From Amedibacterium intestinale (lineage in GTDB: Bacteria; Bacillota_I; Bacilli_A; Erysipelotrichales; Erysipelotrichaceae), in assembly GCF_010537335.1 (NCBI RefSeq), contig NZ_AP019711.1:930001-994000 (forward strand): a stretch of 64,000 nt of DNA, given 5' to 3'. The position numbers were made by a program, and so were the translations under genes. Below, piece by piece: positions 38,437 through 43,210 of this stretch; within the stretch, counting starts at the first letter, position 1, and every line of letters begins with the position of its first letter. The notes beneath the pieces were generated by a model. It saw only the letters and a program-made list of their open reading frames with translations. It did no database searches and was not told where the DNA came from.

Positions 38437-38688
38437 TTACTGTACACAAACTACCCCATCTTCTTTGACAGTAATTTCCATTCCATCTTTTACATAAGTC
38501 AAAAACTCATCTTCCAGACAATCAATAACAGGCATCGATATATCTTCCAGCCAGACAGCTACCAAAGAATCAATCGTATTAGAAAATAAAAGACAAGATG
38601 GCTGACGATTCATGGAGCAGGCACAGTATAAAACAAGCTCTCCTGTGTGGATAATTGTTTGTGGCAGACACAACGCTTTTCCTGCCAT
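38437..38688 (-). CDS. Aconitase-X swivel (DUF126)-like fragment, N-terminus missing
   Basis: 83 residues resembling the C-terminal part of the AcnX small-subunit/swivel family (about 130 residues): AGKALCLPQTIIHTGELVLY, the Ile-rich SLVAVWLEDISMPVI, and DGMEITVKEDGVV. The first half of the swivel domain and the large subunit are missing, and an in-frame TAA lies a few codons upstream. It may be a remnant or a misread small protein. It overlaps no other gene and follows the amide hydrolase after 45 bases. Confidence 0.45.
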   Translation of the reverse strand: MAGKALCLPQTIIHTGELVLYCACSMNRQPSCLLFSNTIDSLVAVWLEDISMPVIDCLEDEFLTYVKDGMEITVKEDGVVCVQ

Positions 38689-38733: not shown

Positions 38734-39945
38734 TTATTCAAGTGAAAACGTATAAACGGCATCAGGATCACTGTAATTTTCGTTACCTACCCATGTTACT
38801 GTTTTATCCGTTAAATTATAAACTACACTGTGTACTGTAAGAGAATTTTTATCATCATTGTTCCAGCTGCGTCTTCCTACAATACTTAAAATATTCATAG
38901 CTTCATTTTCATCAGCTACAATTCCATTTCTTTTTTCCAATTCTTCATAAATGCGATCGTATCGATCGGCACCTTTCTTTTCTTTTATATTTGATGCTTC
39001 ATAATACCCAGGCTGAAGAACAAAGTTTGTAACTACCTGATAATCACTGTTTGCTTCTTTCTTTCCAATATATTCATCCTGATCATTATAAATGACTTTC
39101 AGTGTTCTTTGTGAACCATCATTGTCGCTGGCATCATTTTTCCCTGTCCACTCCAAAATAGCACTTTTCCCTGTACTATCCGCCACCATATAGTGGTAAG
39201 AAGTAGATGCTGAATCATGAAGATCGTAAGAAGATGCAATTTCAACAGCTTCCTCCACGCTATCCGCATAATCCAAAATCAAACGTAACAATGTCGTTGA
39301 GGTAAAGTCTGGTTTATCCGTATTTTGATCGGTAGCGATTGTTTTATCTCCTCCCTGATATGTCATATAGATCCCACAGCTAACACCTGCATCATTAATA
39401 CCATCCAAAGGAGCATAAGTAGAAGCTAAACTAATTACCTTATCCATTAAACCATTCATATTCTGATCAACATCAATCCCTAAAAACTGAAGATCCACTG
39501 TAGAAATTGATGCATGTCTTCCTTTATTTTTTTCGGTAAACACCAGCATCGTATTTGTTTTAGAAAAATCGTAATTACGTGCAAACAGCATATCCCCATC
39601 TTTTGTTTTCGCGCTAAAAGAAGAACAGCCTATTTCAGGTGCACTCATATGAATCGGAATGATTCCCTTCGTTAAATGATCTGTTACGAATTGAATCAAT
39701 TCACCATCATTGGAAACTCCACCTTGTTCTACAAAATCATCAAGATAAAAATCCCCCTTAACATTCATTCGATAAATTGCACCATCAGAATGCTCATCAT
39801 TGCGATCACGAAGCATTTCAATACTGGATAGTGTACTGATTTCATTATGCCAAAGACCATAAATACATCCTGCAATCAAAATCACCATAATTAATACAAC
39901 TATCCCAGTTATTTTTAAAATTTTTTTAATTCGTATTTGTTTCAT
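38734..39945 (-). CDS. Linear amide C-N hydrolase (choloylglycine hydrolase family), lipoprotein-like
   Basis: 403 residues. The N-terminus carries a long hydrophobic segment ending in LIAGC (Cys27), a usable lipobox. The Ntn domain follows an unusually long pro-region: IGCSSFSAKTKDGDMLFARNYDF has the nucleophile Cys107 and the conserved Arg of the bile salt hydrolase/penicillin V acylase family. Known enzymes expose this Cys at the N-terminus by cleavage, so a pro-segment of about 105 residues would have to be removed. The substrate (bile salts or acyl-amides) cannot be read. Its promoter has twin operators at 39963-40017. Confidence 0.85.
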   Translation of the reverse strand: MKQIRIKKILKITGIVVLIMVILIAGCIYGLWHNEISTLSSIEMLRDRNDEHSDGAIYRMNVKGDFYLDDFVEQGGVSNDGELIQFVTDHLTKGIIPIHMSAPEIGCSSFSAKTKDGDMLFARNYDFSKTNTMLVFTEKNKGRHASISTVDLQFLGIDVDQNMNGLMDKVISLASTYAPLDGINDAGVSCGIYMTYQGGDKTIATDQNTDKPDFTSTTLLRLILDYADSVEEAVEIASSYDLHDSASTSYHYMVADSTGKSAILEWTGKNDASDNDGSQRTLKVIYNDQDEYIGKKEANSDYQVVTNFVLQPGYYEASNIKEKKGADRYDRIYEELEKRNGIVADENEAMNILSIVGRRSWNNDDKNSLTVHSVVYNLTDKTVTWVGNENYSDPDAVYTFSLE

Positions 39946-39962
39946 AATTACCTCCACTCAAA

Positions 39963-40017
39963 ATGTTGACAAGTCAACATCGCAATTATACAGTTATGAT
40001 GTTGAGTTGTCAACATC
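39963..40017 (-). promoter_or_regulatory. Consensus promoter with two operators ahead of the amide hydrolase
   Basis: On the minus strand TTGACA (40013-40008), a 17-base spacer and TATAAT (39990-39985). Two related palindromes flank it: TGTTGAC-aa-GTCAACA (core of 39963-39980) at the transcript start and GATGTTGA-gttg-TCAACATC (39998-40017) over the -35. Their centres are 36 bases apart. Confidence 0.85.
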
Positions 40018-40502: not shown

Positions 40503-41183
40503 ATGACAAAAATTATAGTTGATAATGTTTATGAAAATACGCTTGAAACGTATTATCGCAGTGAAGATGATACCATGCCTTATGTGTATGGAAATACCAT
40601 GCGTGTTAAAGAATTTCGTGGTTCTTCTCGCTCTTCTGTATTATGGACTACAAACGCTGCCATGGAAGCATGGAATGCCACAAGAAGAACCTATGGTTCC
40701 CCTATTCCTTTCCGTTATGCATTTAAACGCATTTGGGAAGGAGGACATGGAAGACAGTCACAACACTATGCAGGTGTATCTTTTGATGTAGGACAAAGTT
40801 TAAGTCAATCACAAAGAAATCGTATTTGGAATGTTGCGTATGATCTAGGTGTATGGTCTTATGTGGAACCACAATATATGACACCAACATGGGTCCACTT
40901 TGACAAACGCTATGGTCCTCCGGCATGCAGTGCTGGTTACCCTGTTGTAAGAAGTGGAAGTAAAGGAATCTATGTGCTTGTATTACAAGATGCGTTAAAT
41001 GCTTTAGGGTTTAGTACTCGTACATTAGATGGCATCTTTGGTGCTAATACGCGTTCTGCATTAACTTCTTTCCAAAGAAACAATGGATTGGTGGCTGATG
41101 GGGTATGTGGTTGTCAAACATGGACAAGACTTGTAAATGAAGCTGTTGGTATCGGAAGAACTCCATCGGTTATAGATCCTTAA
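40503..41183 (+). CDS. M15-like peptidase with C-terminal peptidoglycan-binding domain
   Basis: 226 residues. The N-terminal half carries H-x-x-G-x3-D (HYAGVSFDVG) and PTWVHFDKRYG, the zinc ligands of M15/VanY-type D-Ala-D-Ala peptidases. The C-terminal 65 residues (GSKGIYVLVLQDALNALGF, LDGIFGANTRSALTSFQ) form a PG_binding_1 domain. There is no signal peptide, so it may act as a lysin released with the cell wall, in the forespore, or by a phage-like route. The ATG at 40503 has GAAGGAGG upstream; a terminator follows. Confidence 0.85.
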   Translation: MTKIIVDNVYENTLETYYRSEDDTMPYVYGNTMRVKEFRGSSRSSVLWTTNAAMEAWNATRRTYGSPIPFRYAFKRIWEGGHGRQSQHYAGVSFDVGQSLSQSQRNRIWNVAYDLGVWSYVEPQYMTPTWVHFDKRYGPPACSAGYPVVRSGSKGIYVLVLQDALNALGFSTRTLDGIFGANTRSALTSFQRNNGLVADGVCGCQTWTRLVNEAVGIGRTPSVIDP

Positions 41184-41346: not shown

Positions 41347-42558
41347 TTAGAAGTATTTAATTGTAAATCTAGTACCCTTATGAACCTTAGATTCAACTGA
41401 AATAGTTCCATTATTTTGTTCAATGATTTTCTTGGCAAGAGATAAACCAATACCAACGCTATCTTTAGAAGAATGTTTTCCTTTATAAAATCTTTCAAAG
41501 ATATGTTTTAATTCTTCTTTAGAAATACCAGTTCCATGATCTTCAATCACAATATAAGAATAAATTTTTTCATTTCCATAAGAAATCTCAATAACAGAAT
41601 CATCAAAAGAATGTTCTACACAGTTTTTCACTATATTCGTAATCGCTTCTACCTGCCATTTAAAATCACATTGAATCGTATCTCTTTCATCCCCATTCAC
41701 AAGAACTTTAATATTTTTTAAATCACATAAAGCAGCTACATTTTTTAAAGATGTACAAATGATGTCTTTAACTTTCACTTGTTCTGTCATAAAATGTATG
41801 ACATTTGCATCAAACTTAGATAACTTTAATAACGACTGAATTAAGAAATTCATATTCATTATTTCTCTTTTTATATCCTGTATAAATTCTTTTTTGATCG
41901 TTTCATCCATATCCGAATCATCTATGATTGCATCCAGCATGATCATCATTGATGTTAACGGTGTTTTTAACTGATGCGAAATATCAGACAAAGAATTTTT
42001 TAAATTTATTTTATCTAACAACGAGTTTTCTGAAGATTCTTTCAACATAATTGTCGTTTTATACACCTCATTTTTTAAAATAGAGAGTTCATCTTCTTCA
42101 TTTTCTTCCATATCAATTTCATAATTATGCTTATTGATCTCTTCTATGTATCTTGTGATATCATGAATTCTTTTATCTTTATTTTTTTCATACGTTAAAA
42201 AATAACAAAGCAAAATTCCAAACATGGTGATATTTAAAAAAACTGTGATACCTAAAAATAATTTAAAGCTTTCTTCATTTTTTAAAACCAGGGAGTCTTT
42301 ATTCGGATCAATCCCAAATTTCAATAAACCTTCATAATTCCCTGCTTCTGTATTATTTAATATTTCGATGACTTCTAAATCCGTTACTTCTGGATATTTT
42401 TCTTGCAGTATAGAAATAATCTGGCTCATTTTCTGATTATTGTTTTGCGTGTAAATACGATACTGGTAAACGCAAAACAAGGCAGAAGCACATGTAAATA
42501 ATAAAATTAACAGCGTGGTTATCTTTAACCATGTTTTTTTATAATGTTTTAACTTCAT
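41347..42558 (-). CDS. Sensor histidine kinase
   Basis: 403 residues: two N-terminal membrane segments (TTLLILLFTCASALFCVY and ITVFLNITMFGILLCYFLT) enclosing an external domain of about 60 residues, then HAMP-like linker, the H-box SHQLKTPLTSMM, N-box and ATP-binding boxes (ITNIVKNCVEHSF, EDHGTGI, KDSVGIGLSLAKKII). It overlaps its response regulator gene by 20 bases. The downstream genes on the same strand order (ABC ATPase, permease, regulator, kinase) fit an antimicrobial peptide-sensing set such as BceRS-AB. Confidence 0.92.
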   Translation of the reverse strand: MKLKHYKKTWLKITTLLILLFTCASALFCVYQYRIYTQNNNQKMSQIISILQEKYPEVTDLEVIEILNNTEAGNYEGLLKFGIDPNKDSLVLKNEESFKLFLGITVFLNITMFGILLCYFLTYEKNKDKRIHDITRYIEEINKHNYEIDMEENEEDELSILKNEVYKTTIMLKESSENSLLDKINLKNSLSDISHQLKTPLTSMMIMLDAIIDDSDMDETIKKEFIQDIKREIMNMNFLIQSLLKLSKFDANVIHFMTEQVKVKDIICTSLKNVAALCDLKNIKVLVNGDERDTIQCDFKWQVEAITNIVKNCVEHSFDDSVIEISYGNEKIYSYIVIEDHGTGISKEELKHIFERFYKGKHSSKDSVGIGLSLAKKIIEQNNGTISVESKVHKGTRFTIKYF

Positions 42559-43210
42559 CGATTCTATATCCTATTCCCTTTATTGTAATAATGATATCAA
42601 GACCTAATTTTTGTCTTATTCTTTTCATATACACCGTAACCGTATTATCATTTACATCATTACCTGTCCATTCCCATATTTTTTCAAGTATATAATTTCT
42701 TGTCACTACTTTATTCAAATTAGAAAATAAAAGTGCTAAAATTTTCAATTCTAAACTTGTTAAAGGGATTGGCTTACCACTTTTATAAACTTCCATCTTG
42801 TCCAAATCAAATGAAATATCACATACCTGTACAATGAAATTCTTCTTTTTTCTTAATAAGATTTTATTCACTCTGGCAATCAATTCTTTTGTAGAAAATG
42901 GTTTTGTAATATAATCTTCTGCACCTAATTCTAAGCCTAATACCACATCATCTTCACTATCTTTTGCGGTAAGAAAAATTGTCGGTATTTCTAATTCACT
43001 GATTACGCTTTGGTATAAGTCAAAACCATTTCCATCTGGAAGTGAAATATCAAGAATGATTAAATCAACTTTATTATTTCTTAAAAAAGACGTTGCATTT
43101 ATAACATCATGTTTTACAATACAATGATAATCATTTTTAAAAAGAGAATACTCTAATCCTTTTGAAATTGCCTTATTATCTTCTACTAATAAAATATCCA
43201 ATATATTCAC
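42539..43210 (-). CDS. OmpR-family response regulator
   Basis: 223 residues. The receiver has the acidic pocket (LVEDNK), phosphoacceptor Asp in LIILDISLPDGNG, Thr in IFLTAKD and the Lys in DYITKPFS. The C-terminal winged helix (LTSLELKILALLF; GNDVNDNTVTVYMKRIRQKLG) binds DNA. It is phosphorylated by the adjacent kinase and probably drives the ABC genes upstream. A TATAAT-like box lies about 15 bases before its start. Confidence 0.93.
   Translation of the reverse strand: MNILDILLVEDNKAISKGLEYSLFKNDYHCIVKHDVINATSFLRNNKVDLIILDISLPDGNGFDLYQSVISELEIPTIFLTAKDSEDDVVLGLELGAEDYITKPFSTKELIARVNKILLRKKKNFIVQVCDISFDLDKMEVYKSGKPIPLTSLELKILALLFSNLNKVVTRNYILEKIWEWTGNDVNDNTVTVYMKRIRQKLGLDIIITIKGIGYRIDEVKTL

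Follow-up and report, generated by a model that had tools for sequence, protein, structure and literature searches.

The gene at 38734..39945 on the minus strand of the window, which is the whole 64,000-nucleotide stretch of the Amedibacterium intestinale genome that was analysed, very probably encodes an Ntn amidase proenzyme of the C45 type. On a reading that we hold at somewhat better than even chances, this proenzyme would cleave N-acyl amides at the cell surface as part of a MarR regulon that responds to fatty-acyl compounds. Comparison of genomes shows by computation that the operator, the MarR protein and the C45 gene are conserved together. The proposal that the substrate is a lipid amide, which we put at roughly even odds, draws on guilt by association with the genes that appear to share this control.

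The open reading frame of this gene was listed as 38734-39957 on the minus strand with a GTG start, and a better start is the ATG at 39945, which has a ribosome-binding site, GGAGG (39951..39955, minus strand), upstream and yields a product of 403 amino acids. The preliminary description, which covered the stop codon through the distal palindrome (38734-40017), had proposed a strong, near-consensus promoter, and one is present on the minus strand: a −35 element TTGACA (40008..40013), within the distal palindrome, is separated by a 17-bp spacer from a −10 element TATAAT (39985..39990). A short open reading frame that lies immediately 3' of the gene (38437-38688) has no Pfam family above cut-off, and we take it to resemble the swivel part of a protein of the aconitase-X type; the gene for a peptidoglycan-binding-domain protein (40503-41183) is divergent from the amidase gene.

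Assignment of the product to the C45 proenzymes begins with its match to the profile NCBIfam NF040521 (94.3 bits, against a curated cut-off of 85), and the Pfam families AAT (45.4 bits) and CBAH (43.4 bits) are each above their own cut-offs. Six residues, C107, R123, D126, N184, N307 and R328, are invariant in 34/34 proteins of an alignment (A1) from which L037 was omitted as a near relative of L035, and from which L010, L016 and L062 had been dropped before counting when their starts were not found. Judged by this family alignment, Cys107 is the catalytic cysteine, and family analogy suggests the catalytic roles of the other residues. Most of the six appear to correspond to the catalytic residues listed for bile-salt hydrolases in the part of the source consulted (PMC8228234). 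The bile-salt-hydrolase set of Cys, Arg, Asp, Asn and Arg is matched by C107, R123, D126, N307 and R328. One asparagine of that family, Asn82, lies in a region that is an insertion in the profile alignment, and N184 is therefore not equated with it.

Structure prediction places these residues behind a pro-region. The AlphaFold2 model (pLDDT 89, pTM 0.88) contains a helix at residues 4-40, a small alpha/beta pro-region and an Ntn core; the alpha-subunit-like pro-region (residues 43-106; 39628..39819, minus strand) is followed by the predicted catalytic beta-subunit, which would begin with Cys107 after cleavage before this residue (38737..39627, minus strand) and carries the six invariant residues. 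In VIA-align comparisons, three precursor structures aligned through the pro-region: that of isopenicillin-N acyltransferase (2x1c, Z 24.9) from residue 57, uncleaved acid ceramidase (5u81, Z 21.2, 264 residues aligned, rmsd 4.4) from residue 49 and the NAAA precursor (6dxw, Z 21.1, 263 residues aligned, rmsd 4.2) from residue 53. The bile-salt hydrolases and penicillin V acylases had Z scores of about 20-24 and aligned only from residues 104-107, and this difference, with the NF040521 score, places the protein among the C45-type proenzymes. Bile-salt hydrolases had the best E-values in Foldseek, and the relatives found by sequence search of the PDB were bile-salt hydrolases and penicillin V acylases only, so the earlier proposal of an Ntn amide hydrolase with kinship to the bile-salt hydrolases agrees with these matches and with the CBAH score. 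The same description had called the long pro-region unusual for such an enzyme, a view that does not hold, since in C45 proenzymes such a region precedes the nucleophilic cysteine. In bile-salt hydrolases the cysteine, Cys2, directly follows the initiator methionine or a signal peptide; here Cys107 lies behind an anchor and a pro-region.

The modelled fold does not tell a bile amidase from one that acts on lipids or other amides, and the best structural match by Z is the precursor of an acyltransferase. It is therefore worth considering that the protein is a C45 acyltransferase, or an amino-acid or peptide amidase, which makes or trims a component of the envelope, and that its co-regulation with lipid genes reflects only the sensing of membrane state. 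The name of NF040521 indicates that C45 includes acyltransferases, but the fold does not distinguish a hydrolase from a transferase and biosynthetic genes were not seen beside the amidase gene; this explanation is regarded as improbable.

With respect to its location, the protein is predicted to be tethered to the membrane and to face outward, in keeping with its earlier description as a surface enzyme. Residues 4-40 (39826..39936, minus strand) form an unbroken hydrophobic helix in the AlphaFold2 model, and a hydrophobic stretch is aligned with it in close relatives, so the N-terminal end resembles a signal anchor. The lipobox that had been noted is present as LIAGC at residues 23-27 (IAGC, residues 24-27, at 39865..39876 on the minus strand), but its Cys27 is shared by only 2/34 aligned proteins, namely this protein itself and a distant relative, and the modelled helix passes over it without a break. 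Close relatives have the hydrophobic N-terminal stretch without this cysteine. The lipoprotein reading was accordingly set aside: the motif is there and the cysteine is not conserved in orthologues. Lipobox-like patterns of their own occur in several distant relatives (L017, L050, L054-L058) and in two close ones (L031, L042), with two further distant ones recognised by eye (L015, L059). Tethering outside the membrane thus seems to be a common feature of these proteins, and a lipid anchor does not.

The promoter of the amidase gene carries two palindromes that are real and beyond chance. The distal one, GATGTTGAGTTGTCAACATC (39998..40017, no strand assigned), has the form GATGTTGA-N4-TCAACATC and contains the −35 element; the proximal one, AATGTTGACAAGTCAACATC (39962..39981, no strand assigned), covers the expected transcription start, and their starts are 36 bp apart, as the preliminary description had reported. 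When the window was searched for ATGTTGASTTGTCAACAT with up to 3 mismatches, all four strand-wise matches fell at these two palindromes, more than in any shuffled sequence (mean 0.24, largest 2, with 0/100 shuffles reaching four). A search of all 2.49 Mb of the genome for GATGTTGANNNNTCAACATC, allowing up to 2 mismatches, found three places, the two described here and a perfect copy at C1:1096927-1096946, and a control pattern gave one match per strand.

This third copy identifies a candidate for the regulator, as the preliminary description had hoped a palindrome search would do. It lies directly before a gene for a 150-amino-acid MarR protein, which spans C1:1096986-1097435, is 127 kb from the amidase gene and has both PF12802 and PF01047 above cut-off; among 15 matches to PF01047 in the genome, it is the only one at a copy of the operator. 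Next after marR come an iron-type ADH gene and an ALDH gene with a frameshift. Therefore, the operators are assigned to a MarR-type repressor, a link that we consider highly probable, with binding predicted from the sharing of the operator. The TetR-like repressor suggested earlier from the operator spacing was rejected in favour of a MarR type: the third operator fronts a marR gene, and a marR gene adjoins 10/12 of the twin operators that lie away from C45 genes. The accompanying statement that no repressor gene is nearby stands for the immediate surroundings, where no regulator was recognised among the neighbouring open reading frames except a two-component pair (41347-43210) without an operator, but elsewhere in this genome the same operator does stand before a gene for a repressor.

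Other features of this second locus can be recorded. The ALDH gene (L071 8641-10019; G000:C1:1098640-1100018) consists of two open pieces in different frames, so that the ALDH of this genome is either broken or misread; it is whole in related genomes, and the best PDB relatives of an intact copy from L024 include class-3 and fatty aldehyde dehydrogenases. An SDR gene divergent from marR (L071 6051-6812) has a bile acid 3-alpha-hydroxysteroid dehydrogenase as its best PDB match (E 5e-61). It was considered and rejected as a member of the regulon: by eye its promoter is apart from the operator, and no SDR gene was found beside the C45 genes of relatives apart from a single 34% match at L021, about 2 kb from the C45 gene.

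Comparison of 42 related loci in other species, 28 close (L021-L048) and 14 distant (L049-L062), shows how often these genes occur together. A MarR gene, an ADH-ALDH pair or both lie beside the C45 gene in 12/28 close loci, in the orders MarR-ADH-ALDH-C45 (L024, L026, L029, L032), ADH-ALDH-C45 (L025, L027, L030) and MarR-C45-ADH-ALDH (L048), or as MarR with C45 (L021, L022 and L040, and divergently in L028). Nine of these 12 loci carry operator sites with no more than one mismatch (16 sites; 20 shuffles gave a mean of 0.15 and at most 2), and the remaining three (L021, L022, L032) have the variant AGTTGA...TCAACT. No such site was found in the 16 close loci without MarR or ADH-ALDH genes, and the two distant loci with sites (2/14) have them within the C45 gene. 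Where two sites occur, their starts are 36-38 bp apart, or 42 bp in L040. The palindromes, on whose conservation the preliminary description had made its proposal depend, are thus kept at C45 and other loci of further genomes. In the DNA examined, which includes some short contigs, 16/28 close C45 loci had neither a MarR gene nor an operator, and therefore many C45 genes are regulated otherwise. At three of the close loci (L034, L035, L037) the C45 promoter has a different palindrome, GTTCAC-N3-GTGAAC, and none of ten proteins encoded by genes adjoining C45 in these and some other lineages belongs to a regulator family in Pfam.

The split layout of the window's genome is also repeated in another genus of the same family, where two genomes (G057, G089) have a C45 gene with twin operators and, elsewhere, MarR and ALDH genes with operators. 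In a third genome from this other genus (G151), the C45 gene is 70% identical and its twin sites, again 36 bp apart, are weaker. Across the family, the C45 protein was matched in 15/95 genomes, most of these matches being distant, and a search of G052, from the same genus as the window, gave no match.

The clustering of amidase, ADH and ALDH genes in 8/28 close loci could also be explained if the MarR protein sensed a toxic compound with both an acylated amide and an aldehyde, such as an N-acyl peptide aldehyde, which the amidase would deacylate and the dehydrogenases would rid of its aldehyde. This detoxification regulon is quite improbable: the amidase is predicted to lie outside the cell but the dehydrogenases inside it, and the degV, acyl-ligase and yhhN genes under the operator point to ordinary lipids.

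These last genes were found by searching for the twin operator in wider sets of genomes. It is present in 8/294 genomes of the order and in 9/392 of a sample of the phylum, two genomes (G000 and G057) being counted in both sets, and a reversed-pattern control gave none. The 15 places recovered comprise three C45 genes and 12 other sites, in 12 other Bacilli genomes: eight precede marR-degV (L103, L104, L105, L107, L115-L118), and one each is associated with degV alone (L106), marR with an AMP-binding acyl ligase gene (L120), yhhN-marR (L121) and an ABC transporter (L119). Because L115-L118 come from one genus, they are not independent; the DegV identity rests on Pfam for 8/9 proteins and on blast only for L117. 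The C45 gene is absent from the five genomes of the order that have twin operators at other genes. Near C45 genes the sole DegV gene is at L031 (3069-3911), about 1 kb away.

Phylogenetic analysis suggests that the regulators at these sites form a family. In a MarR tree of 24 rows, from which two own-genome rows (L079, L088) had been dropped for length, the 12 C45-linked proteins grouped together (94/94). When ten more were added (34 rows) they did not form one clade, and two outgroup rows on very long branches, own_L086m and own_L089p, which probably are not MarR proteins, fell inside or beside the group; once these two are taken out, the 22 MarR proteins form a single group (94/94) that is recovered in 95% of bootstrap trees. 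The MarR proteins of the degV and C45 clusters may nevertheless bind different ligands.

The composition of this gene set bears on the possibility that the enzyme is a surface bile-salt hydrolase, or a broad bile and penicillin amidase, whose induction by bile acids would run through MarR, and that the dehydrogenases act on aldehydes either derived from bile acids or unrelated to them. The CBAH score, the bile-salt hydrolases that head the sequence and Foldseek matches, the resemblance of the SDR to an enzyme of bile acids and the origin of the relatives, which by their record titles come largely from gut assemblies, are all consistent with this possibility, but the C45-type pro-region lies outside the alignments with bile-salt hydrolases, the MarR family mostly fronts degV, acyl ligase and yhhN genes, and proximity of the SDR gene to the C45 gene is not conserved. 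A bile-directed enzyme is thus considered unlikely. An N-acyl-lipid amidase is favoured because of the C45 class, the MarR clusters and the degV, acyl-ligase and yhhN genes under the operator, and on these gene associations acyl amides appear to suit the regulon more than bile salts do.

In the mechanism that we infer for an N-acyl-lipid amidase, including its topology, self-cleavage, substrate, inducer and control by repression rather than activation, the proenzyme would be inserted in the membrane by its N-terminal helix, face outward and cleave itself before Cys107, after which the anchored alpha part would keep the catalytic beta part at the surface of the cell. The enzyme would then release free fatty acids from N-acyl amides, candidates for which are N-acylethanolamines, other fatty-acid amides and ceramide-like lipids. 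A MarR-type repressor bound to both operators, at the −35 element and the start site, would block transcription until a fatty-acyl ligand released it, and the same repressor would govern its own gene and those for the iron-type ADH and the class-3-like ALDH. Since the amidase and the marR-adh-aldh genes would share one repressor, the regulon would allow acyl chains to be salvaged from amides, alcohols and aldehydes. The recovered chains may be activated by the fatty-acid kinase system of the cell; the genome has a FakA-like gene, and none of its six DegV genes is at one of its three operators. YhhN proteins, which we take to be lysoplasmalogenases, would make fatty aldehydes. By guilt by association, the gathering of acyl chains, whether from amides, alcohols, aldehydes or free acids, is the simplest thread common to these genes.

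Several known systems have features in common with this one. In the parts of the sources consulted, DegV proteins bind fatty acids, FakB proteins are members of the DegV family and fakB4 of S. pyogenes is under the MarR protein FabT (PMC10138225); the FabT systems of streptococci and enterococci likewise combine a MarR family member, palindromic operators, an autoregulatory layout and, in one species, control of a DegV/FakB gene (PMC10138225, PMC13046290, PMC9083066). Unlike FabT, which has a neighbourhood of fatty-acid synthesis genes, the MarR protein described here is encoded beside acyl-handling genes and scores 22.4 bits against the 200-bit NCBIfam cut-off for FabT. The enzyme is like Penicillium isopenicillin-N acyltransferase and other C45 proteins (NF040521) in having a pro-region before the catalytic cysteine and a fold matched through it (2x1c), but differs from the C45 reference enzymes in its N-terminal membrane anchor and twin MarR operators. 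It is like human NAAA and acid ceramidase in that their precursor folds are matched from residues 49-53, with the catalytic cysteine behind an alpha part, but is bacterial, membrane-anchored and only 18% identical over the aligned part. With the bile-salt hydrolases and penicillin V acylases of the choloylglycine hydrolase family it shares the catalytic domain (residues 107-403), but unlike theirs this domain follows an anchored pro-region about 100 residues long, and the gene is linked to others of lipid rather than steroid type. A literature search, a weak one that covered few subscription papers and preprints, found no description of a MarR-C45 unit or of such a bacterial NAAA.

Taken as a whole, and only tentatively, these observations suggest that an undescribed MarR family, whose twin operators have the form GATGTTGA-N4-TCAACATC, serves gut Firmicutes as a sensor of acyl chains and controls a salvage regulon (a DegV/FakB-type protein, acyl ligase, YhhN, ADH and ALDH), to which some lineages may have added a surface amidase that destroys N-acylethanolamines or ceramide-type lipids of the host, so that these bacteria would both feed on and alter host lipid signals. 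If this is true, a regulator, an operator and a gene set for the recovery of acyl chains by gut bacteria would have been named, and a gene that a domain search files under bile-salt hydrolases would become a candidate bacterial counterpart of NAAA and acid ceramidase. It would then be possible to test directly which gut bacteria, and which of their enzymes, hydrolyse the N-acyl lipid signals of the host.
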